Positions 21,468-48,374 of a stretch of DNA of 64,000 bases are shown piece by piece; position 1 is the stretch's first letter, and each line of letters opens with the position of its first letter. The stretch lies in the NCBI RefSeq assembly GCF_016405885.1, contig NZ_JAEKGC010000008.1, positions 124,001 to 188,000 on the forward strand, in the 5' to 3' direction. Source of the DNA: Arthrobacter sp. MSA 4-2. GTDB taxonomy: Bacteria; Actinomycetota; Actinomycetes; Actinomycetales; Micrococcaceae. The translations under genes were made by a program, and so were the position numbers. The notes beneath the pieces are model-generated. The model was not told where the DNA came from and did no database searches. It worked only from the letters and a program-made list of their open reading frames with translations.

Positions 21468-21494
21468 GACAGGACATCGCTCAGATTTGTGACA
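21468..21494 (-). promoter_or_regulatory. ECF41-type promoter of NmrA copy 1
   Basis: On the minus strand TGTCACA (21494-21488), 16 nt, then TGTC (21471-21468) match the shared bipartite promoter. This matches the remembered ECF41 consensus (TGTCACA, 16 nt, CGTC) except for the first base of the -10 box. The NmrA-like start codon is about 88 bp downstream. Confidence 0.75.
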
Positions 21495-21567
21495 ATGCCC
21501 CTACGGCCGCGTCTTCGTACGCTTAGGATCGGGGCGACGGTGCTGCTAGAACCAGACGCTGCGCCCA

Positions 21568-23154
21568 TCAGTGTTCGAGGAGCTTTTGCTTTGATACGGG
21601 TACGGGCGTTGGCTGACCGGGCTTCTTCGAGGAAGCCTGCGTGCCGTCCGACCGGTCTCGGGGCGTTCCGCTGCGCGCCTCGTGCAAGGCGCCTGGAGCG
21701 GCAGGTGTCCCCGCCACGTCGCAATGCATCGGGTGCACCCTCTCGGGGCCGGCTTGATCATGAGTGGCGGCGGGGTTCCGGATGGTGGCCGCGGCGAGGA
21801 TGCCGCCGAGCACCAGCACCACGGCACCGATCATGCAGGCCGAGGCGAACCCTGCCGAAAACACCGGCGGGTCGCTGTAGGCGTCACCGGTGAGCCCGAC
21901 GGCGGCCGGGAGGACGGAGATGGCGACGAGGCCCGCCGCGCGGGCCACGGCATTGTTCACCCCTGACGCGAGGCCGGCCTGATGGTCGGGCACCGCGGTC
22001 AGGGCCGCCGACGTAAGCGGGGCCACGAGTAGCGAGAGGCCCAACCCCAACACGACCACAGGCGGCAGCACGTCCAAGACGTAGGACGCCCTAGGCCCGA
22101 TTCGCAGCATGAGGACCAGCGCCACCGCGCACAACAGCGGCCCCACGGTCATGGGTATCCTCGGCCCGATCCGCGCACCGAGCGCTCCCGCACGGGAGGA
22201 CAGCACGAGCATGAGGGCCGTTATCGGCAGCATCGAGGTCCCGGCCCCGACCGGGCTGAAGCCCGACACGATCTGGAGGTGAAGGACGAGCAGGAAGAAG
22301 ATGCTGCCGAAGACGGCGTAGATGAGGAAGGTGACGGCGTTAGCGGCACTGAACTGGCGGTTGGCGAAGATCCGCAGCGGGAGCATCGGATGCGCCGTGC
22401 GCCACTCCACGATCAGGAATGCCACGGCAGCGAGGAGGCCCAGGACGGCACTCGCTAGGACGGGCGGCGAGCCAAAGCCCCGGGCTGGCGCCTCGATCAG
22501 CGCGTAGGTGGTGCCCGCGAGGGCCAGGGCGCCGAAGACGGCTCCGGCGATATCGAGCCGACCCGTCGCGGCGTCGTCGCGGCTTTCCGGGACATGCCGG
22601 ACGGCGATCCAGACCACGACGGCGGCAAGGGGCACGTTTATGAGGAACACCCAACGCCAGGAGACGCTCTCCACGAGCCAGCCGCCGAGGAAGGGACCGA
22701 TCGCGGTCGCAACACCACCGAGGCCCGACCAGGCGCCGATGGCCCGCGCGCGGTCCTCACCCGAGAACCCAGCCTGAATGATGGCGAGGCTCCCCGGCGT
22801 GAGCAGCGCCCCACCCACACCCTGGAGGGCCCGCGCCGCGATAAGCAGGCCGGCGTCCGGAGCGAGCCCGCACAGCAGCGATGCGACAGCGAACCAAATG
22901 ACCCCGACCACGAAGACGCGCTTCCGCCCGAACATGTCCCCGAGGGAGCCTCCCATCAGGATGAAGGAGGCGAGCGTCAGGGTGTAGCCGGTCACCATCC
23001 ACTGCAGGGCGGCGAAGTCCTCGCCGAGGTCGGATCCGATGGTAGGCAGGGCGACGTTCACCACCGTGGCGTCGATCCCCGCGATGCTGGAGCCCAATAC
23101 CGTGGCCAGCAGGATCCACCGTCCGGACGCCGTGCCCATCCTGATCCCGCTCAC
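21568..23154 (-). CDS. DHA2-family MFS drug exporter (EmrB/QacA type)
   Basis: This 528-residue major facilitator protein has about 14 membrane helices. It starts with the typical ATVVNVALPTIGSDL motif of helix 1, then MGGSLGDMFGRKRVF (motif A) and GVGGALLTPGSLAII (helix 4 region). These mark proton-driven multidrug or antiseptic exporters of the 14-helix group. The GTG at 23154 is used; ATG 23139 is possible. The ECF41-type promoter at 23330-23356 lies about 170 bp upstream, so export is probably part of the ECF41 response. Confidence 0.9.
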   Translation of the reverse strand: MSGIRMGTASGRWILLATVLGSSIAGIDATVVNVALPTIGSDLGEDFAALQWMVTGYTLTLASFILMGGSLGDMFGRKRVFVVGVIWFAVASLLCGLAPDAGLLIAARALQGVGGALLTPGSLAIIQAGFSGEDRARAIGAWSGLGGVATAIGPFLGGWLVESVSWRWVFLINVPLAAVVVWIAVRHVPESRDDAATGRLDIAGAVFGALALAGTTYALIEAPARGFGSPPVLASAVLGLLAAVAFLIVEWRTAHPMLPLRIFANRQFSAANAVTFLIYAVFGSIFFLLVLHLQIVSGFSPVGAGTSMLPITALMLVLSSRAGALGARIGPRIPMTVGPLLCAVALVLMLRIGPRASYVLDVLPPVVVLGLGLSLLVAPLTSAALTAVPDHQAGLASGVNNAVARAAGLVAISVLPAAVGLTGDAYSDPPVFSAGFASACMIGAVVLVLGGILAAATIRNPAATHDQAGPERVHPMHCDVAGTPAAPGALHEARSGTPRDRSDGTQASSKKPGQPTPVPVSKQKLLEH

Positions 23155-23329
23155 GATCTACCCGCCCATCGACCCCGCAGCACCCCGCTGCGCCCCACCG
23201 GTTGCGGGAGCAGATGCCCGTCTGGCCGTAGCGCTGCCGCTTCCATGCGATTCATGCGTTTCATCGAAATCTCTCCTTTTGAGCGTCGGTGGCCGTGCAT
23301 CGGAGGTTAGGCAGAGCCGTTACAGATTC

Positions 23330-23356
23330 GACAACCGAGAGCGACTAGTTGTGACA
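23330..23356 (-). promoter_or_regulatory. ECF41-type promoter of the MFS exporter
   Basis: TGTCACA (23356-23350), 16 nt, TGTC (23333-23330) on the minus strand. The -35 box lies inside the last codons of the truncated ECF41 gene (GAC TGT CAC AAC TAG), so the promoter and the sigma gene's 3' end are physically fused. Confidence 0.75.
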
Positions 23357-23983
23357 GTCAGGGGTAAGGAGGTCTTCGAGTGCACCTAGATTGCCTGTGC
23401 GCGCCGCGTTGAGGAAGGCGGTGAGCAAGCTTTGCTGTTCGGTGGAACCGGTGGAACCGGTGGAGCTCAGGCGTTCGGGTGTGAGGTGCTTGCGAGCCCG
23501 GCTGACCAGCTGGCGCGCGTTGGCTTCTTTTAGGTTGAGGATTTGCGCGATCTGCCCGTACGGGTAATCGAAAGCCTCCCTTAATATGTAGGCGGCACGC
23601 TCTGTCGGTGAGAGCTCCTCCAACATGAGCAGCACCGCAAATCCGAGTGACTCCGTCTGTTCCGCTCCGAGGGCGGGATCGCAGGTGGTGTCTACGGGTT
23701 CCGGGAGCCAGGGTCCGATGTACGTTTCCCTGCGTAACCGTGCAGAGGCGGCAACATTGATGGCCAGCCGTGTCGCGGTCGTCGCCAGGAACGCTGGTGG
23801 ATGGCGCACTACTGCCCAGTCGGTGGACTGCCAGCGGATCCAAGTGTCTTGAACGACGTCTTCGGCCTCGGCGGCGCTTCCAAGCATCCTGTACGCAATG
23901 CCAAAGAGCCGCGGGCGCACCGCCTCGAAGGTCACTGTTGCGCGCTCGAGATCCTGCGAATTGGCGCTGTCCTTAATTTCCAT
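23345..23983 (-). CDS. ECF41-type sigma factor lacking the C-terminal extension
   Basis: This 212-residue sigma factor has region 2 intact (FGIAYRMLGSAAEAEDVVQ, DTWIRWQS), the linker motif WLPEP (YIGPWLPEP) and region 4 (SPTERAAYILREAFDYPYG, LVSRARKHL). ECF41 proteins normally continue into a SnoaL-like domain with DGGGR- and NPDKL-type motifs. Here the protein ends just after LEDLLTPDC, so that domain is missing. In studied ECF41 factors the extension modulates sigma activity, so this truncated form may be deregulated or dead. ATG 23983 was chosen because upstream residues are not conserved. It may be transcribed with the MFS gene downstream. Confidence 0.85.
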   Translation of the reverse strand: MEIKDSANSQDLERATVTFEAVRPRLFGIAYRMLGSAAEAEDVVQDTWIRWQSTDWAVVRHPPAFLATTATRLAINVAASARLRRETYIGPWLPEPVDTTCDPALGAEQTESLGFAVLLMLEELSPTERAAYILREAFDYPYGQIAQILNLKEANARQLVSRARKHLTPERLSSTGSTGSTEQQSLLTAFLNAARTGNLGALEDLLTPDCHN

Positions 23984-24689
23984 GTCTCGATCTCTCGCAT
24001 AGACGGGGTTTGCGATCTGGTCGTCAGGGCCCAACCAGTACGGGTATCTGCGTGCCGCCAGGCACCATCCGTGTGGTGAGGGGTAGTGGCCGGATGCGGG
24101 TGTGGACTGATGCGCACGCCTGCCGCGCGCTGAAGCGGATTAGCGTTCGGTGCTGTATTCAGGGATATGCAGTTCTAAAGGCGTCCCTTCTTTGGGCCAG
24201 GTTCTCCACGGCATCGATTGGCGTCAGGAGCGGCTAAATCCGCCGGTCGATGAAGGGGGACCAGACTGATAGGCAAGTGCGCTCCGTGTAGCGGGACACA
24301 CCTGGTCTGGATGCGTACGGTGGCTCCTATTCACGCTGACTGTCGTGCGGCCGCGGGGGAGGGCCGAGGATTACCTCGGCACCAGGGCATGGTCGGCGTG
24401 AAGCGCAGCTCTCCGAATTCATCCGCGGACCGCGAGCACCTGCTCGCGTATCTGCCGGCGATCAGAGATCGGCAAAAATGGGAGGTGGCATCTTCATGAT
24501 CTTCCTTGGCAAGCCCTTGGAGTAAGTGACTGATCGCGGGCGTTCGCTCGCGAGGGGGATCTTTCACATCTGGCCCCGCACCAAGGTGCTTGACCTGTGC
24601 AGCCAGCCTGACCGACTGCCGTTAACGGTCCCGAAATCTGGGCAGCCCACTATCTGAGGGGCTCGAGGGCGGCGCTAAAATTGAGGCGT
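23984..24689. other. Gene-free stretch
   Basis: This is a divergent intergenic region between the truncated sigma gene and the large STAND regulator. No supported coding frame and no ECF41-type promoter was found in either direction. Confidence 0.45.
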
Positions 24690-27600
24690 ATGACAGGCCC
24701 TCATGATGCCGAACGTGGCCCTGTGCTCATCGTGCGCAGCAAAATTGAGACGCCGCCTGTGACAGAGCGGCTGATTGCGCGCGCCCGGTTGACGGACAGG
24801 ATCCTCGGCCTGATGCGTTCACACCGAATTGTGTGCATCACCGCCACAGCGGGGGCCGGCAAGACTACGGCGGCTATCCAGGCATTGGAAGAGCAGGAAC
24901 GTCCCGTGGTCTGGATAACGTTGGACAGCACCGACCGCGCCCCCGGGCGGCTGCTGCTGTATCTCGAATCGGCGTTTGCCAACGAAGCACCACACCTGCG
25001 CGGCCTTGTAACCAACGTGCTCGCTGCGGGGCTGGGGCACGAGGAGGCTACGGGTTTGCTGGTTGAAGCAGTGGCCGGTGAACCCCTCGTGCTTGTCTTG
25101 GACGGACTTGAGCAACTCGCGGGCGCTGAAGAGTCCATTTCTCTTGTCCGGGCCATCGCACGCTACGCGCCGCGCACGCTGAAGGTTCTGCTCCTGAGCC
25201 GCCTGGACGTGCCACTCGATGTCGGCTCCGACGTAGGCGTAGATCAGGTAGCTACCGTTGGAGAGTCTCAGTTGGCCTTCAACACCGACGAAGCGGCCGA
25301 CGCCCTGGCACAGTACGGGATGCTCGACATTGATCCAGCGCGTGCCGTGGAATCTACGGGCGGATGGGTTACCGGGATATTATTCGAGGCGTGGCGCGCG
25401 CGTGAGCACGTAGTGGGGACCGGCGGTGAGGCGGATCCGCTCCATGGTTACTTGGCTTCTCAGATCCTTGCCCGCCTCACGGCCGAGGAACGAGATTTTC
25501 TCATCACCACGTCGATGCTTGAAGAGGTGACGGCCGCTCGGGCAGAAAAGCTCGGTGAGGTCGGGGCTGGTGAACGACTGAAGGGGCTTTACGCACAACA
25601 TCTGCCTGTCTCCTGGAGAGCCGGGTCCGCCAGCATGCGCTGCCACCCACGATTCCGTGAGTACCTCCTGACCCTTTTGAGACGTCGCGACGGCGAAGAC
25701 CTCCGAAGCCTGCGCCTGGTCTTCGCCGACTTGATGCGCGCGGAGGGAAACTTCGAGGAATGCGTGGAGCAGCTGCTGCTAGCTGGCGCGTTGGACGACG
25801 CGGTAGAGCCCGCAGGACGCGCCATCATCGGTGTTATTGCACGGCTCGACTACCCCGTTGCGAAAAAGTGGCTTCGAATCCTCGCCTCAGCAAAAGACAG
25901 TCAAACCTCGGAGCTGGCGGTAGGGGAACTCATGCTCGCCATCGCCGATGATGACTACGCCCGGGGTTGCTCGGTAGCTGACAGACTTGAATCGGCAGGT
26001 GCCCGCAGGCAGCTAGCCGCCACCTCTCCCACCGGTGCAAGCATCATGGCGTGGTGCTACTGGCACTTGGGGCGGGTCGATGAGATGAAGGCCGTCCTCA
26101 CTTCCGCGCCACGAAGCCCCGAAGTAGACGCGGCATCATACCTCTTGTCGCTATCCGCACTGAAGCCCGAGCCTGCCGGCCTTACAGTTCCGCGCCTAAC
26201 CGGAGGACCCCTCGACGCCGTCATAATGCGGACCCACTACGTACGCGGGAGGCTCCGCGAAGCCAACCAACAAAACCCTTCGCCCTGGGCCGCCGCCGTT
26301 TCCACTCCATGGAAGGCCGCGACCCTCAGGGCAACTGGCCACCTGGAACAGGCCCTGAACCTGTACCGGTCATACAGCCCAGAAGCCCGCTCTCAGGCCT
26401 GGATGCACGGGGTTGCGGGCCCAGAGATCATGGTCGATCTCGCCGACGAGGCAGAAGCGCGCCGGATTCTTGCCCACGGCAGGGACCTGATCAAGGCCAG
26501 CGGGTCGTTAGTCATGGAGTGGCTCAACCTGCTGGTTGAGGCGAAGCTCGAACTTCGGGTCAGCCACAACGTCAACGCCGCGGGCGAGATCCTTGATCGG
26601 GTAGAGAACTCGGGCGGACGTTCCTACGCCTTCATTGGAGAATCGGTGGACACGGCGTGGGGACTGTTGTTCCTCATGTCCGCACCGGATGAAGGCCGTG
26701 CCGTTCAAGTCCTTCAGCGTGCTGTTGACAGCATGCAAGAAGGGCACCGCATTCTTGAATTGCCTGCTGCCGCAGCGTACCTGGCTGAAGCCGAGTGGCG
26801 GCGGGGCCACGAAGCAGAATCAGACGCCGCATCCGATCTGGCACTTGCAGCAGCCGCCGAACAGGGCTCCAACCACCAACTGCTCCTCGCGCTGTCCGAC
26901 TTCCAGGGCGTCGTCTCACGCCGCTTGGACGCCGAACGCGGCGTTGATTCGCGCTGGCACGAGTTGGGTCGAGCCTTACGCAAACGGGGCGTTCCCGTCG
27001 ACCGGCAGGCGCGCCCGGTCATCTCCCTCTCTGAGTTCGGCTCCCTGCGCATCCTCGTTGAGGGAGAAGAGTCGAGGCCTCGCCTAGCAAGAAGCGCGAC
27101 GCTCCTCGCCTATTTAGCAACGGTCCCCGGTTACCGCGCCACACGCGAGGAACTCTTGGAGGCCCTGTTTGACGGCCGCACGGATGAGTCATCGCGGGCG
27201 TACCTGCGGCAGATCACTCACAGACTAAGGGAAGTGTTACCGGCGGGGACCGGCCCGTCATTCTCCGCGGACCTGCTCGCCTTCCACATTCCAGTAATCA
27301 TCGACAGTGAATCTGCCCAGTTCCTATCGCTCTTATCTGAAGCCGCCAGACTCACCGGATCAGAAATGCTTGAGACTCTCTTACGAGCACTTTCCATTGT
27401 CGATCGCGGTGAATATCTGCCTAATGTGGACTTTCCGTGGGCGCGGCAGCGACGCGAATACCTCGAGGATCAGGTTGTTCAAGCCCGCCTACAGGCAGGG
27501 CTGTTGGCGTTCGACCAGGAACACTACGAGCAGGCGGCTTCCCTGGCCGAGCAAGTCGTGGCCCGGGACCCTTTCAAGGAGGGCGCGTGGCGCCTGTTGA

Positions 27601-27734
27601 TGCACACCGCTAGCGCTTTGGGCGACAACGATCAGATCACCACCTACTTCAAGCGTTGCGCGGAGGCCTTGAACGAGCTTGAAGTATTGCCATCAGATTC
27701 CACCCGGTTGCTTTTCGAACGGCTGCGGCGTTAG
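24690..27734 (+). CDS. STAND ATPase regulator with C-terminal winged helix and BTAD
   Basis: This protein of about 1,014 residues has an N-terminal MalT-like NTPase with Walker A TATAGAGKTT (about residues 50-59) and a Walker B-like LVLVLDGLE. A long helical TPR-like middle follows. Near residues 785-860 there is an OmpR-type winged helix (LSEFGSLRILVEGE, ATREELLEALFDG), and the last 170 residues match the bacterial transcriptional activator domain (VQARLQAGLLAFDQEHYEQ, VARDPFKEGAWRLLMH). SARP regulators usually have the winged helix and BTAD at the N-terminus; here they are C-terminal, as in a known LuxR-like subgroup. ATG 24690 and an in-frame TTG at 24681 are both possible. The target genes are unknown. 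Confidence 0.85.
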   Translation: MTGPHDAERGPVLIVRSKIETPPVTERLIARARLTDRILGLMRSHRIVCITATAGAGKTTAAIQALEEQERPVVWITLDSTDRAPGRLLLYLESAFANEAPHLRGLVTNVLAAGLGHEEATGLLVEAVAGEPLVLVLDGLEQLAGAEESISLVRAIARYAPRTLKVLLLSRLDVPLDVGSDVGVDQVATVGESQLAFNTDEAADALAQYGMLDIDPARAVESTGGWVTGILFEAWRAREHVVGTGGEADPLHGYLASQILARLTAEERDFLITTSMLEEVTAARAEKLGEVGAGERLKGLYAQHLPVSWRAGSASMRCHPRFREYLLTLLRRRDGEDLRSLRLVFADLMRAEGNFEECVEQLLLAGALDDAVEPAGRAIIGVIARLDYPVAKKWLRILASAKDSQTSELAVGELMLAIADDDYARGCSVADRLESAGARRQLAATSPTGASIMAWCYWHLGRVDEMKAVLTSAPRSPEVDAASYLLSLSALKPEPAGLTVPRLTGGPLDAVIMRTHYVRGRLREANQQNPSPWAAAVSTPWKAATLRATGHLEQALNLYRSYSPEARSQAWMHGVAGPEIMVDLADEAEARRILAHGRDLIKASGSLVMEWLNLLVEAKLELRVSHNVNAAGEILDRVENSGGRSYAFIGESVDTAWGLLFLMSAPDEGRAVQVLQRAVDSMQEGHRILELPAAAAYLAEAEWRRGHEAESDAASDLALAAAAEQGSNHQLLLALSDFQGVVSRRLDAERGVDSRWHELGRALRKRGVPVDRQARPVISLSEFGSLRILVEGEESRPRLARSATLLAYLATVPGYRATREELLEALFDGRTDESSRAYLRQITHRLREVLPAGTGPSFSADLLAFHIPVIIDSESAQFLSLLSEAARLTGSEMLETLLRALSIVDRGEYLPNVDFPWARQRREYLEDQVVQARLQAGLLAFDQEHYEQAASLAEQVVARDPFKEGAWRLLMHTASALGDNDQITTYFKRCAEALNELEVLPSDSTRLLFERLRR

Positions 27735-28254: not shown

Positions 28255-29175
28255 TTACCGGGATTCCTTGGAAATCTTTTTCATGGCGAGGATTGCATCG
28301 GCGAATGCCTGAGGTTGCTCGGCTGGGAGATTGTGGCCCGCCTGGGGCACCTGCCGGTGCTCCCGAAAACCTATGAAATGGCGCGCCTGCGCGGACCCGT
28401 CCGTAGCGGGAAAGTTGCCGTCGGCGAGCCCGTCGAGTGTGATCGTTGGGACGGAGATCTCAGGCTGCTCGCTTAAACGACGTTCGATGCTCTCGAACTG
28501 AGGGGCGCCCGGCGCGTACCCGAGCCGGTGGCGGTATGAGTGGATGACGATATCGACGTAATCGGGGTTGTCGAAAGCCTGGGCAGACCGGTCCAACTCG
28601 TCGGGGGCGAATGCCCAGGCGGGGGAGTTGCGCTTCCAGATCACTTCCGCAATCTCGCGGCGGTGCTTGTGGAGACCAGCTCGACCCCGCTCGGTAGCAA
28701 AGTACCAGAAGTACCAGAAGCCCGCCTCGAGCTTGGGTTCGAGCGGCATCTGCGATGCGGCGATGTCCTGGACGAGGTACCCGTTGACCGATACCAGTCC
28801 TGCCACTTTATCGGGCCAGAGGGCCGCCACTGCGCATGCGGCCCGCCCACCCCAGTCGTAGCCAGCCAAGATAGGGCTGCCGAGGTTGAGCGTGCTGATG
28901 AACGCGGAGAGATCCGCGGCGAGGGCCGCTTGCTGACCGGACTTCTCCACCTGCTTGCTCAGAAAGCGTGTTGGTCCGTGGCCACGCAGGTAAGGCACGA
29001 GCACGCGCAGGCCCTCATCAGTGAGCCGAGGTATGACGTCGGTATAACTGTGGATGTCGTACGGGAAACCGTGCAGAAGAACGACGGGTGTGGCGGTCGG
29101 ATCGCCGGCGTCAACATATGCAACGGACAACTCACCGGCGTCGATCGTGCGAGTCGAGTGAACGGGCAAAGGCAT
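28255..29175 (-). CDS. Alpha/beta hydrolase (epoxide hydrolase/dehalogenase-like)
   Basis: This 306-residue hydrolase has the oxyanion segment LLHGFPYDIHS and the nucleophile elbow GYDWGG, where Asp replaces Ser, as in epoxide hydrolases and haloalkane dehalogenases. The catalytic His lies near the C-terminus in QAGHNLPAEQP. It is the third gene of a minus-strand trio of hydrolases, 108 bp after the previous one, so it may share the ECF41-type promoter at 31070. The substrate is unknown. Confidence 0.85.
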   Translation of the reverse strand: MPLPVHSTRTIDAGELSVAYVDAGDPTATPVVLLHGFPYDIHSYTDVIPRLTDEGLRVLVPYLRGHGPTRFLSKQVEKSGQQAALAADLSAFISTLNLGSPILAGYDWGGRAACAVAALWPDKVAGLVSVNGYLVQDIAASQMPLEPKLEAGFWYFWYFATERGRAGLHKHRREIAEVIWKRNSPAWAFAPDELDRSAQAFDNPDYVDIVIHSYRHRLGYAPGAPQFESIERRLSEQPEISVPTITLDGLADGNFPATDGSAQARHFIGFREHRQVPQAGHNLPAEQPQAFADAILAMKKISKESR

Positions 29176-29283
29176 CGTAAGCTCCGGATTAGAGAGTGAG
29201 AACGGTTAGAGAGTGAAAACGGTGGAGCTAAGCGACACGGCAGGTGCCACGCTCCCTGGAGGAGCGAGGCACCCACCGGTGGT

Positions 29284-30024
29284 TCACGCGCTAACGGATT
29301 GCCCGCCGACGTAAGCTTTGCCTGCTTCCGCAATCACGGCTGCGACGGCGTCAGGCTGCGAGACTGACAGTGCGTGCGAAGCGCCAGTAATTTCGTGGGT
29401 ACCCTGTGAGGCTGCGCGCTCTGCCCCGGCGCGGTGAACCGTGACCGGGATGTTGAGGTCCTGGTCACCGAATACGTGCCAGGAAGGAATGTCCTTCCAA
29501 GCCGGTCGGTCTGTTGGCAGCCCCTCAGAGAGCGCGGCCTCAGTGACGGGGCGTTGAGTCGCCGCCATCAGCGCAGCTTCGGCCGCTGGGACGTCGGCTG
29601 CGAACTGGTGGTGGTACAGCTCCTGCCGGATCGTGAACTCGTTGCCGCCGGTAGCAACCGGGTACGCGGCGAGAGCGCTGCCGAGTGAGCTACCCGGCTC
29701 GCTGGTCGATAGCTGAAGTGCGCTTTGACCCGTCTCCGGAACAAAAGCAGCGACGTACACGAGTCCGACGACTGCATCGTTACGGGCTGCTGCCTCTGTG
29801 ATAACGAGCCCTCCGTAGGAGTGACCGACGAGGACGACGGGACCCCCGACTGAGGCGATGACGTCGCGCACGTATGCGGCGTCGCCGGCGAGACTACGCA
29901 GCGGGTTCGCAGCCGCGACAGCGGTGACTCCGTGTTCCTGCAGCCGGGCGATCACATCGTTCCAAGATGCAGATTCCGCGAACGCTCCGTGTACGAGCAC
30001 GATAGTTGGCTTCTGGTTAGTCAT
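29284..30024 (-). CDS. Alpha/beta hydrolase (GHSYGG esterase type)
   Basis: This 246-residue hydrolase opens with IVLVHGAFAESASW, carries the nucleophile Ser in VLVGHSYGGLV, and has the catalytic His in TGASHALSVSQPD near the end. The family includes plant-type hydroxynitrile lyase-like and carboxylesterase proteins common in actinobacteria. It is the middle gene of the hydrolase trio, 37 bp after the upstream esterase, so very probably co-transcribed with it. Confidence 0.87.
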   Translation of the reverse strand: MTNQKPTIVLVHGAFAESASWNDVIARLQEHGVTAVAAANPLRSLAGDAAYVRDVIASVGGPVVLVGHSYGGLVITEAAARNDAVVGLVYVAAFVPETGQSALQLSTSEPGSSLGSALAAYPVATGGNEFTIRQELYHHQFAADVPAAEAALMAATQRPVTEAALSEGLPTDRPAWKDIPSWHVFGDQDLNIPVTVHRAGAERAASQGTHEITGASHALSVSQPDAVAAVIAEAGKAYVGGQSVSA

Positions 30025-30061
30025 GTTCTTGGTTCCAATCAGTTTCTGGTACGGGGGGTGG

Positions 30062-31069: not shown

Positions 31070-31096
31070 GACCAAGCGGTCTTCATTTCTGTGACA
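31070..31096 (-). promoter_or_regulatory. ECF41-type promoter of the hydrolase cluster
   Basis: TGTCACA (31096-31090), 16 nt, GGTC (31073-31070) on the minus strand, with the esterase start at 31012. It fits the shared promoter pattern with exact spacing; the -10 box begins with G. Confidence 0.7.
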
Positions 31097-38660: not shown

Positions 38661-38680
38661 ACCGGTGAGCGCAGGGAGCC

Positions 38681-40531: not shown

Positions 40532-41290
40532 CTATTTTCCCTGGGGCACGGGCTCCTTGAGCCATTCCTCGAACCGGGTGGTGAACAGGGTGGCGTCCGG
40601 CCCTGGCACGAGGGTGGTGTCGGCCAGTTCCATGCCGAAGTACGGGGCGTGGGGGTCGGCCACCACGATGCGGGAATCGCCGCGTGCGGCCAGCCCCTGG
40701 CGGATCAATTCATCGAGCTTGAATTCCTCGGGCCCGGCGATCTCGTGGGTTCCATTGAGGGGTTCACCGACGCTGGTACGCCCGACGGCTGTTGCGACGT
40801 CCTCGGCTGCCATGGGCCGGATGGAGACCGGGGCAAGGTGGACCTCGTCGCCGATGGTTGCGGCCTGGGCGATGCTCTTCACGAATTCGAAGAACTGCGT
40901 TGCATGGACGATGGAGTAGGGGACCGGGCCTTCCTTGATGAGCTTTTCCTGGGCGATCTTCGCCCGGAAGTACCCGCTGGCGGCCATTCGCTCGGTGCCG
41001 ACGACAGACAGCGCAACGTGGTGGCGGACTCCGGCCCGGACTTCCGCTGCCAGGAGGTTGCTGGTGGAGGTCTCAAAGAAGTTCAGGACGGCTTCATCTT
41101 CGAAGGACGGTGAATTTGACACGTCAATGACAACCTGTGCACCCTCGAGGACCTCGGCCAGTCCTTCTCCGGTGAGCGTGTCCACTCCGGTGTTGGGTGA
41201 GGCCGAGACCGCTTCGTGTCCGTGTTCGGTGAGCTTCGTGACGAGCTTCGAGCCGATCAGGCCGCTGCCGCCGATAACAACAATTTTCAT
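40532..41290 (-). CDS. NmrA-like NAD(P)-binding protein (copy 3)
   Basis: This 252-residue protein resembles copy 1 almost residue for residue (MKIVVIGGSGLIGSKLVTKL; GTERMAASGYFRAKIAQEKL). The similarity extends into the promoter region, so this is a recent segmental duplication. It is divergent from the intact ECF41 sigma gene, the classic arrangement for the oxidoreductase/epimerase partners of this sigma group. Role and substrate are unknown; a redox- or cofactor-linked function is likely. Confidence 0.88.
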   Translation of the reverse strand: MKIVVIGGSGLIGSKLVTKLTEHGHEAVSASPNTGVDTLTGEGLAEVLEGAQVVIDVSNSPSFEDEAVLNFFETSTSNLLAAEVRAGVRHHVALSVVGTERMAASGYFRAKIAQEKLIKEGPVPYSIVHATQFFEFVKSIAQAATIGDEVHLAPVSIRPMAAEDVATAVGRTSVGEPLNGTHEIAGPEEFKLDELIRQGLAARGDSRIVVADPHAPYFGMELADTTLVPGPDATLFTTRFEEWLKEPVPQGK

Positions 41291-41377: not shown

Positions 41378-41404
41378 GACAAGGGGTCTCTGGCTTTTGT
41401 GACA
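41378..41404 (-). promoter_or_regulatory. ECF41-type promoter of NmrA copy 3
   Basis: TGTCACA (41404-41398), 16 nt, TGTC (41381-41378), followed by ATACC on the minus strand. The -10 region and flank are the same as for copy 1 (TGTCATACC). Confidence 0.78.
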
Positions 41405-41573
41405 CCGTTCTGCCCGGCTGGCTCTGACGGAAAGCAGGAAGGAGTCCCTGATGGAGCTCCTAGCTTCGGCTGTGGCCGGGCTACCAACGAAAACCGGGAT
41501 CCGGTAGTGGGTGTGACAGCCGGGCGGCCGGTCTCACGTGATAGACGCTGCGTAGGTAGGGACTTGCAGCATG

Positions 41574-41600
41574 TGTCACGTTTGGCGTTCCTGTCTTGTC
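41574..41600 (+). promoter_or_regulatory. ECF41-type promoter of the sigma gene
   Basis: TGTCACG (41574-41580), 16 nt, TGTC (41597-41600). It precedes the intact ECF41 gene by about 50 bp, which implies positive autoregulation, as reported for ECF41 factors. Confidence 0.75.
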
Positions 41601-41651: not shown

Positions 41652-42659
41652 ATGTCGGGGTATGGATCGGGCAGCACCGAAGGTCGACGTCATCGGATGC
41701 CGGACGGGTCAGACGATTCCGGAGGGCACGGACTGCGGGCAGGCGATGAAGCCCGCGGAAAATCCGGGGAGTTCCTGCCAGCCGGGGGTTCAGGGAGTTT
41801 GGATGAAGCTGAGGCGGTCTTCGCACTCCACCGGGGCCGGCTCTTTGGGATTGCTTATCGGATGCTCGGAAGCGCATCGGATGCTGAGGACATCGTCCAG
41901 GACGTATGGGAGCGGTGGCAGACCTGTGACCGGTCAGAGGTGCGGGAACCGGGAGCGTTCCTTGCGACGATATCGACGCGGCTTGCGATCAACGTGTCCC
42001 AGTCGGCGCATTCCCGGCGTGAAACGTACATCGGTCCGTGGCTTCCTGAACCCGTGAACACGGAGTCCGACCCCGCACTGGGTGCCGAACGAGGTGAGGC
42101 GCTCGGCTTCGCAATCCTGCTGCTGCTGGAGAAGTTGACTCCGACGGAACGAGCCGCCTACATTCTCCGCGAAGCGTTCGATTATCCCTACCGGCAGATC
42201 GCGCAGATTGTGCTGATGAAGGAACCCGCCGTCCGGCAGCTCGTGTCCCGGGCGCGCAAGCGTCTTGTCTCGGAGCGGCATGTGCCGGTCGCGCCCACCG
42301 AGCAAAAGCGCCTTCTGACGGCGTTCCTGCGTGCGGCTCAAAACGGTGATGTCACTGCGCTCGAGGACCTTTTCGCGCAGGATGTCGTGAGCTACTCCGA
42401 CGGCAACGGCGTGAAACTGGCCGCCCGAATTCCTGTGAAGGGCCGGGCCCGCGTCGCTCGGTTCATCGCGTCCTTCTCCTCCCACTTCTGGAATGGCAAG
42501 ACCGTCGGATGGGTCGAGCTCAATGGTCAACCGTCAGCCGTTCTTATGGAGGACGGGCAGGCGACAACGGCTATCGCCATCACTGTAGGTCCAACCGGAA
42601 TCGCACAGCTGATGTGGATGATGAGCCCCCAAAAGCTGCACCGGATCCATCCTGCGTGA
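41652..42659 (+). CDS. ECF41-family RNA polymerase sigma factor with SnoaL-like extension
   Basis: This sigma factor of about 335 residues begins with an unusual Gly/Ser-rich N-terminus. Region 2 follows (FGIAYRMLGSASDAEDIVQ, DVWERW), then the ECF41 linker motif WLPEP, region 4 (LTPTERAAYILREAFDYPYR, LVSRARKRL) and a SnoaL-like C-terminal domain with DGNGVK at the DGGGR position and SPQKL at the NPDKL position. In studied ECF41 proteins this domain replaces a separate anti-sigma factor and tunes activity. ATG 41652 follows a GGGAG site and lies after the autoregulatory promoter. It is the only complete, canonical ECF41 gene here and the best candidate to drive all ten promoters. Confidence 0.92.
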   Translation: MSGYGSGSTEGRRHRMPDGSDDSGGHGLRAGDEARGKSGEFLPAGGSGSLDEAEAVFALHRGRLFGIAYRMLGSASDAEDIVQDVWERWQTCDRSEVREPGAFLATISTRLAINVSQSAHSRRETYIGPWLPEPVNTESDPALGAERGEALGFAILLLLEKLTPTERAAYILREAFDYPYRQIAQIVLMKEPAVRQLVSRARKRLVSERHVPVAPTEQKRLLTAFLRAAQNGDVTALEDLFAQDVVSYSDGNGVKLAARIPVKGRARVARFIASFSSHFWNGKTVGWVELNGQPSAVLMEDGQATTAIAITVGPTGIAQLMWMMSPQKLHRIHPA

Positions 42660-42703: not shown

Positions 42704-43621
42704 TTGCACGATGACGAGCACGACGACAACAGCGCGCCCTATTCACAGGACCTTGAAGGCGAAAGGCAACGGTTAGCTGGCATCGCGTTCCGGATGCTCG
42801 GATTGAGTTTCGAGGCGAACCTCGCTGTGGCGGAGGCGTTCGAACGGTGGCTGAACCTTACTTCCGAGGAACGGGCGGATATCGGCTCGCCCCAGGAGTG
42901 GCTGACCGAAGCGGTTTCCAAAGTGTGTCTTGAGCGTCTGAGTGTTAAGCCATCGCGCCGGGCCGGCTATCGGGGGAACTGGTTGCCCGAGCCAGTGCCC
43001 TTCCCACCCCTTGAGGAGCTCTCGTCGGGTCAAAACCCGAAAGACCGCTATACGCTCGACGAATCCGTGAACATGCTGCTCATGGTGGTGCTTGACTCCC
43101 TGACCGCTGGAGAGCGGGTCGCTTTCATCCTCCACGATGTTTTTGGGGTTGGTTATAAAGAGATAGCGGATGTCGTCGGACGATCACCTGTAGAGACGCG
43201 CCGGCTCGCGAAGTCAGCACGCCTTCACATTCAGGACCGCCGGAAAAACGAGGTGTCGGCAGAACGCCAACGCCAGATGGTCCTCAATCTCCTGAAGGCA
43301 TGCGAGGCACGGGACGAACATGCCGTGGGCTGCATGCTCCATCCCCTGGTGACGCTTCTGGTCGACAGCGGGGGCAAGGGCCGTGCCGTAGCAGGACCGG
43401 TCGAGGGCGCGGAAGCCGCATCCCGCAAGCTGATCCAGATGCTGATAGAGGCTCCGGTGATGACCGTGTCCGCCCGTTCAGTCAATGGTGGATCCGGGCT
43501 CGTCTTCAGGCATGCCGAACGCGTAATCGGTGTGCTCAGCGTAAATGTGGAAGCCGACAAGATCATCAACATTTGGATAGTCACCAACCCGGACAAGCTG
43601 GAGCAGTGGAACACCTCCTAA
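42704..43621 (+). CDS. Diverged ECF41-like sigma factor paralogue
   Basis: This 305-residue protein has the full ECF41 layout and motifs: WLPEP in the linker (GNWLPEPVPF), GGKGR near the DGGGR position and a perfect NPDKL near the end. Region 4 is moderately kept (VFGVGYKEIADVVG). Region 2 has lost its acidic signature, reading SFEANLAVAEAFERW where active members have AEAEDVVQDTWIRW. It starts at TTG 42704, 44 bp after the intact sigma gene, so the two are co-transcribed. It may bind RNA polymerase or DNA poorly and act as a modulator, or recognise different promoters. Confidence 0.8.
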   Translation: MHDDEHDDNSAPYSQDLEGERQRLAGIAFRMLGLSFEANLAVAEAFERWLNLTSEERADIGSPQEWLTEAVSKVCLERLSVKPSRRAGYRGNWLPEPVPFPPLEELSSGQNPKDRYTLDESVNMLLMVVLDSLTAGERVAFILHDVFGVGYKEIADVVGRSPVETRRLAKSARLHIQDRRKNEVSAERQRQMVLNLLKACEARDEHAVGCMLHPLVTLLVDSGGKGRAVAGPVEGAEAASRKLIQMLIEAPVMTVSARSVNGGSGLVFRHAERVIGVLSVNVEADKIINIWIVTNPDKLEQWNTS

Positions 43622-43986: not shown

Positions 43987-45654
43987 CTACCGGGAATCAC
44001 TTCCGGGGGTTGGTGCCAGTGCTTCGGCGTCAAGACGATCCGATAGTTCCTGCCGGTACAGTTCCGCCGGTCCCTTCCCGAGTTGCGCCGGTGTTGCCGG
44101 GTCCATCCTGTACTCGAAAAACCACCCCGAGGCCCGCATGCGTAGCCTCTGCACGATGGAGCGTCGTTGCACTGAATCTCCGGAGGCTGCTGGGTGCAGT
44201 GGGGCCGATGGATCGTAGCTCACAAGCTTCCAGCGTTCGTACGCAGTCACGGGTTGGTGCACTTCGACGAATTCGCCGTGTGGCAGGCGGACTATTCGAC
44301 CGGTCTCTCGGCCGTGGATCACAATTTCGCGGTCCTTCCTTTGAAGGGCGAGGCAGACTCTGCGGGTGACGGCAAACGCCATGACCGGGCCGAGGACCAG
44401 AAGGACCTGATAAGCGTGGAGGAGGTCCTCCAAAGCGAGAGAGAGAGCCCGCGCGGCCACGTCGGCGCTGCCCGCGGCCCAGAGCACACCAACAAAGCCC
44501 AGACCGGCCGCGCCGATGGCGGTGCGTGTGGGGTTGTTGCGGGGGCGCTCCAAGAGGTGGTGCTCGGTGGTGTCGGCGCTGATCCAGCGCTCCAGGAATG
44601 GGTAGGCGGTGACGGCCAGGAGGAATAGCCCGACGACGGTCATCGGTGCCAGCAGCGCCAGGGAAACTGTTCCGCCCATGACAGTGATTTCCCATCCCGG
44701 TGGCACCAGGCGCAGTGCACCGTCGATGAATCCGAAGTACCAATCCGGTTGGGATCCTGCGCCGGCATTACCGGGGTCGGACGGACCGTACAGCCAGATG
44801 GGATTGATCGTCGCGGTCCCCCCGATGAGCAAGATGAACCCGGAAAGGACGAACATGAATCCGGCGCTCTTCGCCGCCCGGGTCGGCAGCAGGGGCTCAC
44901 CGACAATGCTTCGATCGCTGCACCCGGGTCCGGGGAACTGCATTGGTTTGTGCAGCAGGGCCAGTGCGGCCCGGACTGCTGCGAGGCTGATAATCCCAAG
45001 GGGAAGGATGAGAACATGCAGGGTGGTGAGCCGGCTCAGGATCACCTGGCCCGGGTAGGGGCCGCCGAAGACGAAATAGCTCAGTGACGAGCCGATCACG
45101 GGAATAGCTTTGAAGGTGCCGTCCATGATCAGCAGGCTCAATCCTGAGAGCATGTCATCGGGCAGTATGTACCCTGTCAGCCCAGTGGCCAGACTTGCCA
45201 GGAAGATGCCGATCAGCACGACCCATGCGGCCTGCCTGGGCTTCCGGAATGCTCCTGTGAAGAACACTCTCAGGATATGCATAACCAGTGCCACCATGAA
45301 GAGCAGGCCCGCCCAGTGGTGTGCCTGGCGCATCAGAAGTCCGCCGCGGACGTCGAATGACAGGTCGAGAGTGGAGTGGAGTGCCCGGGACATTTCCACG
45401 CCGATGAGCGGTGCATAACTGCCCTGATACCGGACTGTTTCCATGGATGGTGTGTAAAAGAAGGTGAGAAACGCCCCGGTCAGCAGCAGCACCACAAATG
45501 AGTAGATCGCCACCTCACCGAACATGAGGGACCAGTGGGTGGGTACGGCCTTATTGGTGCCCCATTTCATGATCGAGCTGTAGCGGGTCTGTGATTTGCC
45601 CAAAGCGTTCAAACGGCGGATCACTGTGCGGGGCCAGGTGCTGGTGGAAGTCAT
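43987..45654 (-). CDS. Stand-alone QcrB-like cytochrome b (copy 2)
   Basis: This 555-residue paralogue of copy 1 keeps the helix B histidines (AHHWAGLLFMVALVMH), FFTGAFRKPR, the PDWYFGF Qo motif and the long tail (CLALQRKDREIVIHG). In helix D the first histidine is present (TLHVLILPLG), but the residue 15 further on is Arg (codon at 44971-44973), replacing the second haem ligand. It lies 122 bp after an NDH-2 gene on the same strand and is probably co-transcribed from the ECF41-type promoter at 47129. NDH-2 reduces quinone and a cytochrome b could exchange electrons with it, but the missing ligand argues against ordinary bc-complex work. Confidence 0.85.
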   Translation of the reverse strand: MTSTSTWPRTVIRRLNALGKSQTRYSSIMKWGTNKAVPTHWSLMFGEVAIYSFVVLLLTGAFLTFFYTPSMETVRYQGSYAPLIGVEMSRALHSTLDLSFDVRGGLLMRQAHHWAGLLFMVALVMHILRVFFTGAFRKPRQAAWVVLIGIFLASLATGLTGYILPDDMLSGLSLLIMDGTFKAIPVIGSSLSYFVFGGPYPGQVILSRLTTLHVLILPLGIISLAAVRAALALLHKPMQFPGPGCSDRSIVGEPLLPTRAAKSAGFMFVLSGFILLIGGTATINPIWLYGPSDPGNAGAGSQPDWYFGFIDGALRLVPPGWEITVMGGTVSLALLAPMTVVGLFLLAVTAYPFLERWISADTTEHHLLERPRNNPTRTAIGAAGLGFVGVLWAAGSADVAARALSLALEDLLHAYQVLLVLGPVMAFAVTRRVCLALQRKDREIVIHGRETGRIVRLPHGEFVEVHQPVTAYERWKLVSYDPSAPLHPAASGDSVQRRSIVQRLRMRASGWFFEYRMDPATPAQLGKGPAELYRQELSDRLDAEALAPTPGSDSR

Positions 45655-45776: not shown

Positions 45777-47099
45777 TCAGCGGGAGGGTTTGGTGCTGGC
45801 GGTAAAGACGTCGCGTGGATGCTGGACGGCCTGGATTGAGACGATATCCCGGCCGAAAAGCGCGGCTCCGGTCCAGACAAGGAGTACCCGGATCTTTCGT
45901 TCCCAGGTGGGGACGGCCAGCACGTGGTAACCGCGGTGCATCACCCATGCGGGGAATCCCTTAATGATGATTCGCCGGAACTGGAAGACTCCCATGCCCA
46001 GGCCGAGGGTGGCGACGACCCCCAGGCTGCTGTGCCTGTACTGCCGCAGAGGCTCGCCTCGGAGGTCAGCGGCAAGGTTCTTGGCCAGGAGTTTGCCCTG
46101 TCGGACGGAGTGCTGCGCGTTGGGCACTGTTCGTGCACCCGGATGGGAGGACGCCAGGTCGGGGACCGAGGCATTGTCACCGGCTCCCCATGCTCCCTCA
46201 ATGGGGGAGTCGTCCGGGCCGACGCGGAGGTCCGCGCGGACCCGCAGGTAGCCACGTTCGTCGATGGGGAGGTCAGTGTGTGCTGCAACAACAGGATTGG
46301 CGGCATTTCCTGCTGCCCACACCAGCATGTCCGAGTCGTACTCCTTCCCGTCGGACAGGACGATGTGCCCGTCGATTGCGGACGTCAGCTGTGTGTTGAG
46401 GTGGATGGTCCCGCCTCGTTCGGTCAGATGACGCACGACCCAGCGGCCCGGGCCGTCGGTGACTTCGGGAAGAATCCGCTTGTTGGCCTCAATCAGGTGG
46501 AAATTGAGGTCCTCGCGCTCGATGCCGGGGTACGACTTCTCGAGGGTGTGCGCCAGCGAAAGGAGTTCTCCGAAAAGTTCCACTCCCGAGAAACCTCCGC
46601 CAACGACCGTTACCGTCAGTGCCTTGCGCCGCTCGGGTCCCATGGGCATGGTCGACGCGCGGTCGAATGCGGTCATCAGCTGATCACGGATCGCGACTGC
46701 TTCCTCCACCGTTTTCAGACCGATCGCGTAGTCAGCCACGCCCGGAATCGGGAAGACACGTGAGACAGCGCCTGCGGTGACCACCACAGTGTCGTAGTGA
46801 ATGGACTGTTCCAGCCCGCTGAGGGGCATGACGGTAGCAGTGCGGTGCGCGTGGTCGAGGCTCGTCACTGATCCTGCGATCACCGTCGTGCGCCGCAGAT
46901 GACGGCGAAGGGAGATCGCTACGTGGCGCGCCTCAACGGATCCTGCGGTAACTTCGGGAAGGAATGGTTGGTACGTCATGTAGGGGCGAGGATCGACCAC
47001 CGTAACCTCGGCCTCACCCTTGCGCAGGGACTTCTCAAGTTTCCATGCAGTGTAGAAACCCGCATACCCCGCGCCCACGATCAGAATCTTTTTCAACAT
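45777..47099 (-). CDS. ndh: Type II NADH dehydrogenase (NDH-2)
   Basis: This 440-residue flavoprotein has two dinucleotide-binding motifs: ILIVGAGYAGFYTAW at the N-terminus for FAD and VTVVGGGFSGVELFGE in the middle for NADH. WGAGDNASVPD near residue 300 is also typical. The C-terminal amphipathic part (IIIKGFPAWVMHRGYH) would anchor it to the inner membrane face. It transfers electrons from NADH to quinone without pumping protons. It precedes cytochrome b copy 2 and has an ECF41-type promoter just upstream of its start. Confidence 0.9.
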   Translation of the reverse strand: MLKKILIVGAGYAGFYTAWKLEKSLRKGEAEVTVVDPRPYMTYQPFLPEVTAGSVEARHVAISLRRHLRRTTVIAGSVTSLDHAHRTATVMPLSGLEQSIHYDTVVVTAGAVSRVFPIPGVADYAIGLKTVEEAVAIRDQLMTAFDRASTMPMGPERRKALTVTVVGGGFSGVELFGELLSLAHTLEKSYPGIEREDLNFHLIEANKRILPEVTDGPGRWVVRHLTERGGTIHLNTQLTSAIDGHIVLSDGKEYDSDMLVWAAGNAANPVVAAHTDLPIDERGYLRVRADLRVGPDDSPIEGAWGAGDNASVPDLASSHPGARTVPNAQHSVRQGKLLAKNLAADLRGEPLRQYRHSSLGVVATLGLGMGVFQFRRIIIKGFPAWVMHRGYHVLAVPTWERKIRVLLVWTGAALFGRDIVSIQAVQHPRDVFTASTKPSR

Positions 47100-47128
47100 C
47101 GTCTCCTGTCTGATGAGTCATCAGCTAA

Positions 47129-47155
47129 GACAGGAAGCAGCTCTGGTTTGTGACG
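47129..47155 (-). promoter_or_regulatory. ECF41-type promoter of the NDH-2/cytochrome b operon
   Basis: CGTCACA (47155-47149), 16 nt, TGTC (47132-47129), followed by TTA on the minus strand. The NDH-2 start codon is 30 bp downstream, matching the short leader of cytochrome b copy 1. Confidence 0.73.
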
Positions 47156-47388: not shown

Positions 47389-47862
47389 TCATTTACCTGC
47401 CGCGGATCCGCCGCGCACCTTGCCTGCCTCATGTGCTTGCGGCAGGTTCGGTGCGGCGGCGGTTCGCTGGACGTTGCTCCGAATCCGGGCAACAAGTGTT
47501 GATGCCAGCATCGCCGTTCCAATTTCGAGGCCGATGACACCCAGAGTCTGTTCATTGGCCGCATCAGTTACCTGAGATGCCGCCGCTGACCCGTTTCCGT
47601 GGGAGTGGTCCGGCGGGGCCGACGTACCCGGTGCCAGCATGAGACCGGCATGCAGTACCGCCATCGACAATGCGGAGATCATGACTTGGTGAAGCACTGG
47701 TGTGGTCGGCCGGCGCCAAATATGCACCGCGCATGGAAGGCAGACCGCTACCATCACAATCATCAGCACGTTGAGCCACCATGGGTGGTGGCTGCCGATC
47801 TGCGACACGTGCATGACGCAGGACCCGGCGGTGGCGAGTGCGCAGAGCCGCCCGTGGAGCAT
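47389..47862 (-). CDS. Small membrane protein, function unknown
   Basis: This 157-residue protein has three or so hydrophobic segments (WWLNVLMIVMVAVCLPCAV, VMISALSMAVLHAGLML, GVIGLEIGTAMLASTLV) and a His-containing loop (SHHPWW, DHSHGN). No family was recognised. It begins 5 bp after the stop of the cupin gene and is surely co-transcribed with it, hence probably under ECF41-type control. The loop histidines could bind a metal, but that is a guess. Confidence 0.65.
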   Translation of the reverse strand: MLHGRLCALATAGSCVMHVSQIGSHHPWWLNVLMIVMVAVCLPCAVHIWRRPTTPVLHQVMISALSMAVLHAGLMLAPGTSAPPDHSHGNGSAAASQVTDAANEQTLGVIGLEIGTAMLASTLVARIRSNVQRTAAAPNLPQAHEAGKVRGGSAAGK

Positions 47863-47867
47863 CGCCG

Positions 47868-48281
47868 TTAGTGGGGCCGGGGCGCACGGAGGTCTTTGCG
47901 CTGCTCAAGTTCCTCGTCCGGGACAACGACGAGCATGGGCTGGCCCGGGGCGCAGAACATCGTCACCACGAACTTCGTTTCCCGGTCCAAGAGGTTGTTC
48001 CCGTCCTGGTAATGGATGACATCTCCGCCCGGTTCCCAGAAGGTTTCACCGGCTTTGACAACGCGCTGCGGCTCACCTTCCAGTTCAAAGACCATTTCGC
48101 CCTCGACGACGTACCCGTAGGCGGGACCGCTGTGCCGGTGCGGAGGGGATCCGATGCTTCCCGGCTTCAATGTGACCAGGATGGTCATCGCGTCGGCGCC
48201 GGTCGGGATCGGCGGGGCAGTCACTGCCGAAAGGACGTCGATAACTAACTGGCCTTCAAATTCATTCGATGTGTGCATCAT
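47868..48281 (-). CDS. Cupin-domain protein
   Basis: This 137-residue single cupin fold has motif 1 as PPHRHSGPAYGYVVEGE and motif 2 as AGETFWEPGGDVIH. The metal ligands are the two His and the Glu of motif 1 and the His of motif 2. The start at ATG 48281 (MMHTSNEF) follows a GAGGGA site; a longer upstream frame lacks similarity. Small cupins of this kind are sensors, dioxygenases or detoxifying enzymes. It is the first gene of a two-gene unit with the membrane protein, behind an ECF41-type promoter. Confidence 0.85.
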   Translation of the reverse strand: MMHTSNEFEGQLVIDVLSAVTAPPIPTGADAMTILVTLKPGSIGSPPHRHSGPAYGYVVEGEMVFELEGEPQRVVKAGETFWEPGGDVIHYQDGNNLLDRETKFVVTMFCAPGQPMLVVVPDEELEQRKDLRAPRPH

Positions 48282-48347
48282 GTCTTCCCTCGCTTTATGG
48301 ATGGAAGACCAGCTCCTGCGGAAGCAGCAGCCGGTCCTACTACTGAA

Positions 48348-48374
48348 GACCACGCAGGATTCGATTTTGTGACC
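48348..48374 (-). promoter_or_regulatory. ECF41-type promoter of the cupin gene
   Basis: GGTCACA (48374-48368), 16 nt, GGTC (48351-48348) on the minus strand, about 67 bp before the cupin start. It is the most diverged of the ten, with G at the first base of both boxes. Confidence 0.6.

Follow-up and report, generated by a model that had tools for sequence, protein, structure and literature searches.

The promoter published for ECF41, a group of extracytoplasmic function (ECF) sigma factors, consists of TGTCACA, a gap of 16 nt and CGTC, and 252 of the 373 ECF41 factors surveyed with it came from Actinobacteria (PMC3426412; here and below, statements on described systems are limited to the cited passages). 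The factors Ecf41Bli of B. licheniformis and Ecf41Rsp of R. sphaeroides had one target each, which was generalised to ECF41 (PMC3426412), and a single target was also identified for RpoE9 of S. meliloti (PMC6180224). In a 64,000-nt stretch of the genome of Arthrobacter sp. MSA 4-2 (contig NZ_JAEKGC010000008.1, positions 124,001 to 188,000; hereafter the window, whose own numbering is used), ten sites of ECF41 type are spread over 27 kb around an ECF41 gene at 41652-42659. We interpret them as the promoters of an ECF41 regulon that is local, has multiple targets and lies in an accessory island, a reading to which we give a probability of about 0.83. With ten sites at this locus and as many as 17 in one related run, ECF41 regulation here does not appear to be confined to a single target.

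Ecf41Bli and Ecf41Rsp share with the 41652 protein the WLPEP linker and a C-terminal extension, and their loci share with the window a COE gene (encoding a carboxymuconolactone decarboxylase, oxidoreductase or epimerase) next door, the same -35 element and the 16-nt gap. Where the two genes are divergent, the motif often precedes both in loci of that type (PMC3426412), as it does here. The Arthrobacter locus differs from them in having ten promoters for about 16 genes, including respiratory proteins, an exporter and hydrolases, in a -10 element reading KGTC, and in the sequence SPQKL, not NPDKL, within the extension. Apart from its single target, the RpoE9 system resembles the present one in combining an ECF41 factor with a carboxymuconolactone decarboxylase (CMD) gene and a matching promoter (PMC6180224). 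RpoE10 of Azospirillum, cited in PMC8999054 and PMC12826043, is an ECF41 factor whose effects, on lateral flagella, reach further than a single COE gene; it differs in its alphaproteobacterial host and flagellar phenotype, and the citing passages mention no local promoter island. SigJ and SigI of M. tuberculosis are of the same SnoaL-bearing sigma type and sigJ regulates sigI, but no local promoter array is mentioned in the passages concerned (PMC4821874). In vitro targets have been reported for 13 S. coelicolor factors; SCO2742, which has a C-terminal extension, had one target as the whole protein versus seven when cut (PMC9205884), and a multi-target ECF41 factor may be hidden in that set. 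The role of ECF41 is unsettled, as peroxide sensitivity was linked to one factor and not to another (PMC8103513). A literature search limited to open-licence papers yielded no printed multi-promoter ECF41 island.

Ten sites with a fixed 16-nt gap

A sequence-only reading of the window had proposed ten 27-mers as ECF41 promoters, and all ten were confirmed at their coordinates and strands. Their resemblance to the ECF41 promoter was also borne out, the -35 element and the 16-nt spacing being those of PMC3426412 and the first -10 base being G or T instead of C. A matrix derived from 184 distinct foreign sites (other species only) ranked precisely these ten above every other position in the window, with scores of 13.8-25.7 bits and the next at 9.4 bits. 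The highest scores were obtained for the sites before NmrA-type oxidoreductase 1 (21468-21494, -, 87 nt to ATG 21380, 25.7 bits), NmrA-type oxidoreductase 2 (38634-38660, -, 80 nt to GTG 38553, 25.3 bits), the FrdA-like flavoprotein (35219-35245, +, 83 nt to ATG 35329, 23.7 bits) and the run of a type-II NADH dehydrogenase-like protein (NDH-2) and QcrB (47129-47155, -, 29 nt to ATG 47099, 22.4 bits). Intermediate scores belonged to the sites before QcrB paralogue 2 (34556-34582, -, 34 nt to ATG 34521, 18.1 bits), the hydrolase run (31070-31096, -, 57 nt to ATG 31012, 17.7 bits), the major facilitator superfamily (MFS) exporter (23330-23356, -, 175 nt to GTG 23154, 17.2 bits) and NmrA-type oxidoreductase 3 (41378-41404, -, 87 nt to ATG 41290, 16.7 bits). 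The lowest were those before the ECF41 gene itself (41574-41600, +, 51 nt to ATG 41652, -35 TGTCACG, 14.1 bits) and the cupin gene (48348-48374, -, 66 nt to ATG 48281, -35 GGTCACA, 13.8 bits). The proposed distance of 30-170 bp to a start codon held to within a few bases, nine sites lying at 29-87 nt and the MFS site at 175 nt.

The loose pattern BGTCACV-N16-KGTC had 11 matches in the window, namely the ten sites and 47961-47987 (+) within the cupin gene, and the same pattern with spacings of 10-15 or 17-23 gave 0-2 matches each. This density was not reproduced in 100 Markov-2 simulations of the window, which contained a mean of 1.1 and a maximum of 4 matches; with the foreign matrix, 60 simulated windows of the same kind contained a mean of 0.42 and a maximum of 2 sites of at least 12 bits. 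The genome as a whole (3,589,572 bases) contained 90 matches to the loose pattern, of which 79 fell outside the window, and only 2 of these 79 reached the lowest window score of 13.8 bits (both 14.9 bits). The stricter YGTCACA-N16-KGTC occurred nine times in the genome, eight of them within the 27-kb stretch, so that clustering in the window was strong by both pattern and matrix. When 38 related genomes were searched for the strict form TGTCACA-N16-KGTC, the genome under study had six sites, all in the cluster, and each of 23 other genus members had 0-4. Foreign sites also showed a conserved stretch right after the -10 element, roughly WTAGCTG; in the window it was found as TTAGCTG at 47129 and in looser versions at 31070, 38634 and 41378. 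A weak eleventh site (41492-41518, -, 9.4 bits by the matrix, -10 GGTT) lies between the ECF41 and NmrA promoters.

Recurrence of sites and targets in other genera

Confirmed ECF41 relatives in named genomes numbered 578, and the loci of the best 80 were inspected (Herbiconiux, Cryobacterium, Microbacterium, Leifsonia, Agromyces, Nonomuraea, Actinoplanes and others). They contained 186 sites of the pattern [TC]GTCACA-N16-[GT]GTC, while spacings of 12-15 and 17-21 and four scrambled -35 elements gave 0-3 matches each and the reversed pattern none. Four loci had no site, 24 had one, 17 had two, 22 had three, seven had four, two had five and four had six. The median distance from site to start codon was 49 nt, and of 180 downstream open reading frames (ORFs) 147 resembled a window protein. 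A site lay upstream of 131 of the 302 called genes that resembled window proteins versus 20 of 1070 others; with the ECF and NmrA families set aside, 40 of 104 window-like genes were still preceded by one. Per-family counts were made with a slightly looser pattern, accepting sites up to 250 nt from the aligned start. They were 90/103 for NmrA, 6/7 for NDH-2, 4/5 for QcrB, 3/6 for FrdA, 3/8 for cupin, 25/87 for ECF genes, and 11/14, 12/26 and 6/18 for the alpha/beta hydrolases abH3, abH2 and abH1; no site stood directly upstream of the sigma-like partner (0/3), CMD (0/3) or LuxR (0/2) genes of these loci. With a stricter pattern and called starts the counts were 5/7 for NDH-2, 3/5 for QcrB, 8/13 for abH3, 2/6 for FrdA and 2/7 for cupin. 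In Microbacterium sp. ASV49 (L072), NmrA, QcrB, NDH-2, ECF41 and FrdA genes occupy one stretch with four sites, three strict and one GGTCACA. In Microbacterium-type loci (L044, L052, L055, L058, L062, L063, L064, L065 and L070) a recurring protein of about 200 residues (STISEA..RS.IYLSTLSSGLVA), membrane-bound in appearance by eye and matching no window protein, was found behind an ECF41 site.

Homologues were also collected without ECF41 as bait, in a class-wide search of 345 genomes in which FrdA was matched in 32 and NDH-2 in 38; 30 loci of each were examined. FrdA was preceded by a site at 37-87 nt in seven of 30 loci including our own (6/29 foreign) and NDH-2 by a site at about 30 nt in four of 30 including our own (3/29 foreign). 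Of 13 further foreign QcrB copies from the class search, two had a site, at distances of 49 and 101 nt. Each of these two is a second copy from family f17, in a genome already known to hold FrdA, and a third second copy of that family had none. The ordinary QcrB of the Arthrobacter genome (L275) was likewise without a site.

Sites were then counted in seven whole genomes chosen from these homologue results (for G346, the places are those among the matches listed). Dense runs were observed in G243 (17 sites in 48 kb and 11 in 35 kb), G109 (13 in 36 kb) and G259 (six in 26 kb and five in 7 kb); G246 had three sites in all and G209 had 13 scattered ones, none at FrdA or NDH-2. Reversed-pattern controls gave 0-4 matches per genome. 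The dense runs mirror the window, with NDH-2, QcrB, NmrA, FrdA, ECF41, the sigma-like partner, cupin, hydrolases, CMD, MFS and large LuxR-type regulators. In 18 fetched pieces from six genomes (the G209 and G111 pieces L239-L241, L249 and L250 were left out), 40 of 73 sites stood directly upstream of a window homologue. By family, the fractions were 6/6 for FrdA, 6/7 for cupin, 3/4 for NDH-2, 7/10 for NmrA, 3/3 for abH3, 3/6 for CMD, 3/9 for abH2, 1/2 each for abH1 and LtrA-like, 3/19 for ECF and 1/13 for LuxR, and none for SDR (0/4) or SARP-like (0/1) genes. A DosR-type hypoxia cluster was considered as well, and nothing suggested one in G209, the sole genome read for it; there 39 kb separate FrdA from NDH-2, neither has a site, and FrdA adjoins a LysR-like gene (by eye).

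FrdA is patchy, being found in two of 37 other genus members (70-71% identity) and yet at up to 86% in family f17. Acquisition of the island is suggested by this patchy presence only; no tRNA was found in the window and its GC content is flat (61.0-64.7% in 4-kb steps). At the island edges lie a large SARP/MalT-like regulator (24681-27734, +) and a LuxR-type regulator (51030-53840, -), homologues of which were also seen in distant islands (38% in L270; 43-53% in L262, L263 and L267-L270).

Besides the one-target precedents given at the outset, several observations weigh against a multi-target regulon. Two of the ten sites, 41574 and 48348, are off consensus at -35 and rank ninth and tenth by the matrix, and a gene for glyceraldehyde-3-phosphate dehydrogenase inside the island has no site. 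Both comparative samples are biased, the 80 loci having been picked by ECF41 similarity and not at random, and the island pieces for FrdA, NDH-2 or sites. Of the foreign downstream ORFs, 33 of 180 match no window protein, and two window genes without a site, SDR 31790 and LtrA-like 18455, have sited homologues elsewhere (5/12 and 5/8). The MFS gene had no directly upstream site in ECF41 loci (0/3) or fetched islands (0/2), and support for the exporter as a recurring target comes from a single presumed operon (CMD-abH1-MFS, in L263). In the class-wide search the site was absent at 23/30 FrdA, 26/30 NDH-2 and all 30 best QcrB loci, and the wiring is therefore lineage-specific. The QcrB result arose because the best loci mostly hold ordinary QcrB, and the window's own QcrB paralogue 1, among the 30, is second in its run. 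In the fetched islands QcrB gave 0/3 by alignment start, although the called ORF of L242 begins 78 nt after a site.

Sigma factor genes and competing explanations

The protein encoded at 41652-42659 (+) has sigma regions 2 and 4, a WLPEP linker and a SnoaL-like C-terminal extension, as judged from Pfam, NCBIfam, a PDB match and alignment. Sigma70_r2 (PF04542) and Sigma70_r4_2 (PF08281) were over cut-off. SnoaL_2 gave 24.6 bits, below the cut-off of 27, and the SnoaL-like part (about 100 residues) was backed by the full-length SigJ model and alignment. Scores against NCBIfam were 272 for the SigJ subfamily (cut-off 271) and 322.1 for SigX4 (cut-off 323.25), and the PDB match was SigJ 5xe7 (E=1.6e-39, 139 bits). 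Two motifs of the ECF41 extension are named DGGGK and NPDKL; in the alignment the 41652 protein has SDGNG and, where NPDKL is expected, SPQKL. A COE-type gene, NmrA-type oxidoreductase 3 (40532-41290), adjoins the ECF41 gene divergently, and the two scanned neighbours of the latter match no anti-sigma family in Pfam.

The gene at 42704-43621 (+), behind ECF41, nevertheless encodes a sigma-like protein, in which region 4 and motifs of SnoaL type are present (alignment; SigJ model 238.7 bits, cut-off 271). Pfam found no region 2 match in it, region 2 being degenerate, and it is 27% identical to the 41652 protein. Homologues (31-33%) occur in other islands, two of four with their own ECF41 site; in the 80 ECF41 loci none of three had one. 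The gene is probably cotranscribed with ECF41, and its product is possibly a decoy or partner of the sigma factor. This protein, the truncated ECF41 described below, the recurrence in other genera and the heme-ligand loss in QcrB all go beyond what the sequence-only reading had contained.

A second ECF41 gene (23345-24034, -; Pfam and alignment) is 61% identical to 41652 and keeps regions 2 and 4, WLPEP and 45 residues beyond the Pfam region-4 match, ending just before the SnoaL DGNG position. The last codons of this gene overlap the -35 element of the exporter promoter. A decayed fragment at 49150-49400 (+) contains region 2 only, followed by a frame change (58% over 55 residues), and a further C-terminal piece of 46 residues lies at G000:C22:151769-151906 (L036). 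Other relatives in the genome are C22:90714 (31%) and two weaker ones (C32 and C34:2748). Because C22:90714 lacks WLPEP in the alignment and the remaining relatives are cut, decayed or weaker, 41652 is the only intact gene found in the genome with both WLPEP and a SnoaL part. A different ECF41-like gene (34-42%) occurs in nine of 37 other genus members; the six of these also covered by the strict-site search all have one strict site about 1.2 kb upstream on the same strand, which fits the classical one-target layout.

Published work points to the SnoaL-like extension as inhibitory in ECF41 factors, with hyperactivity once most of it is removed and its first part retained (PMC3426412, PMC8999054). 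Truncation 204 of Ecf41Bli, which exceeds the inactive truncation 167 by 37 residues, was about 20-fold more active, and truncation 206 of Ecf41Rsp about 120-fold, the shorter 192 being much less active (PMC3426412). The 23345 gene resembles a natural version of these laboratory variants, and it might thus be the truncated protein, not 41652, that mainly drives a set of genuine ECF-type promoters; without a SnoaL part it would act independently of a signal. We consider this unlikely, as neither the window pattern nor the matrix revealed an ECF41 site before the truncated gene itself; the 80 comparison loci, chosen around full-length factors, are silent on the point.

It is less likely still that only the NmrA/COE promoters are live and that the other sites are leftovers from repeated duplication of an ECF41-COE cassette. 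The three NmrA copies, the intact, the cut and the decayed copy of ECF41 and the similar leaders of sites 21468 and 41378 would agree with such duplication, but the ten spacer sequences differ from one another, target types other than COE are sited in other genera too and at similar start distances, and decay would hardly preserve exactly 16 nt. Chance or base composition has a negligible claim, since the simulations, spacing controls, foreign matrix and scoring of outside matches speak against it despite the 79 loose matches elsewhere, two of them equal by matrix to the weakest window site. A repressor operator in place of a promoter was thought unlikely, the element being directional with a fixed 16-nt gap and foreign start codons lying at a median of 49 nt. 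The local multi-target ECF41 regulon is thus the reading favoured by clustering, fixed spacing, an independent matrix and target types that recur in other genera.

Target genes and a putative quinone-pool response

The ten sites appear to serve about 16 genes, with operons read from strand and gaps, and the proposed spread over 27 kb with respiratory proteins, an exporter and hydrolases agreed with the gene assignments. NmrA/NAD(P)-binding oxidoreductase 3, the COE gene, is encoded at 40532-41290 (-), oxidoreductase 2 at 37786-38553 (-), and NmrA oxidoreductase 1 (20622-21380) in a probable operon with CMD (20109-20558; whole run 20109-21380, -; all by Pfam). The NmrA protein was also considered as a known quinone reductase, which is not claimed, as a PDB sequence search gave only a weak match to an epimerase. 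Three alpha/beta hydrolases (30062, 29284 and 28255; 28255-31012, -) with gaps of 37 and 108 nt form a probable operon, and abH3 followed by abH2 was found behind a site also in L263 and L270. The cupin gene (47868-48281) is followed by one for a small protein (47389-47862; both -). The DHA2-type MFS exporter (21568-23154, -) was identified by TIGR00711 (278, cut-off 230.2). A 37-codon ORF with a good ribosome site (23151-23264, -), possibly a leader peptide, lies between the exporter and its promoter, and its stop codon overlaps the exporter GTG.

Profile matches identified a fumarate reductase/succinate dehydrogenase-type flavoprotein (FrdA-like; 35329-37059, +), with no FrdB or FrdC among the neighbouring genes scanned. 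NDH-2 (45777-47099, -) has a second copy in the genome (59%; G000:C22:207792-209096), which had no loose-pattern match within 8 kb of its start. Two orphan QcrB paralogues are encoded at 43987-45654 (paralogue 1, -, 122 nt after NDH-2) and 32869-34521 (paralogue 2, -). In six frames of 28001-50000 no Rieske motif was found, no QcrA or QcrC gene was found beside QcrB, and four CxxCH matches were seen, none judged to lie inside a called gene.

Cytochrome b of a bc1/bcc complex has four heme-ligating histidines, located in helices B and D. In an alignment of 54 QcrB proteins, all four were present in 42, and 12 deviated. The fourth ligand position is R in paralogue 1 and Q in paralogue 2; in nine further proteins the second position holds Q and the fourth R, and in L175 the fourth is L. 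In cytochrome b/b6, heme bH is ligated by the residues at positions two and four of this set. The bL pair was kept in all 12, as was the quinol-site motif PDWY, except for PPWY in L175. An ECF41 site lies directly upstream of seven of the 12, three follow a sited NDH-2 (window paralogue 1, L093 and L245), and L279 and L175 have none. Of the 42 proteins with four histidines, L242 also has a site within the scripted distance, and L244 has one some 390 nt upstream of its ORF; as these two show, linkage to ECF41 is distinct from the loss of ligands. A tree of 35 rows placed all deviating proteins other than L175, eleven in number, in one group with support 100/100. From branch support and bootstrap trees, most ECF41-linked QcrB proteins belong to a clade that has lost one or both heme-bH ligands. 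A QcrB paralogue away from qcr-cta, QcrB3 (SCO7236) of S. coelicolor, is thought to be active in a special respiratory state, in spores (PMC7931247). No report of a QcrB without bH ligands was found in the literature search limited to open-licence papers.

We propose that the SnoaL-like extension would hold back the 41652 sigma factor until a small molecule changes its shape, and that the freed factor would direct RNA polymerase to TGTCACA-N16-KGTC promoters. These would drive the ECF41 gene itself and the sigma-like partner as feedback. The output would comprise three NmrA-type oxidoreductases, a decarboxylase-fold protein, an exporter, three hydrolases and a cupin protein, together with a respiratory branch of a spare NDH-2, the fumarate-reductase-type flavoprotein and two orphan cytochrome b proteins with lost heme-bH ligands. 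Most likely, to judge from the predicted products, this is a redox and detoxification programme altering electron entry and exit at the quinone pool, and the target list suggests a response to trouble there. A wider idea, tentative and rather doubtful in our view, is that ECF41 islands are a widespread actinobacterial response to quinone or cytochrome bc1 poisons, in which the SnoaL-like domain would bind the poison or a quinone-like product and one command would call up a spare NADH dehydrogenase, a cytochrome b lacking heme bH, the fumarate-reductase-type flavoprotein, NmrA-type reductases, hydrolases and an exporter.

The recurring targets name a physiology (quinone pool, respiration, hydrolysis and export), which makes the question of the signal testable with candidate compounds, and the natural truncation at 23345 matches a laboratory variant made to study autoinhibition. 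For bioenergetics, an ECF41-linked QcrB clade lacking heme-bH ligands would be surprising in its own right. If the wider idea is true, the QcrB lacking bH would be a new kind of cytochrome b, keeping the quinol-oxidising site and heme bL and having no Q cycle.

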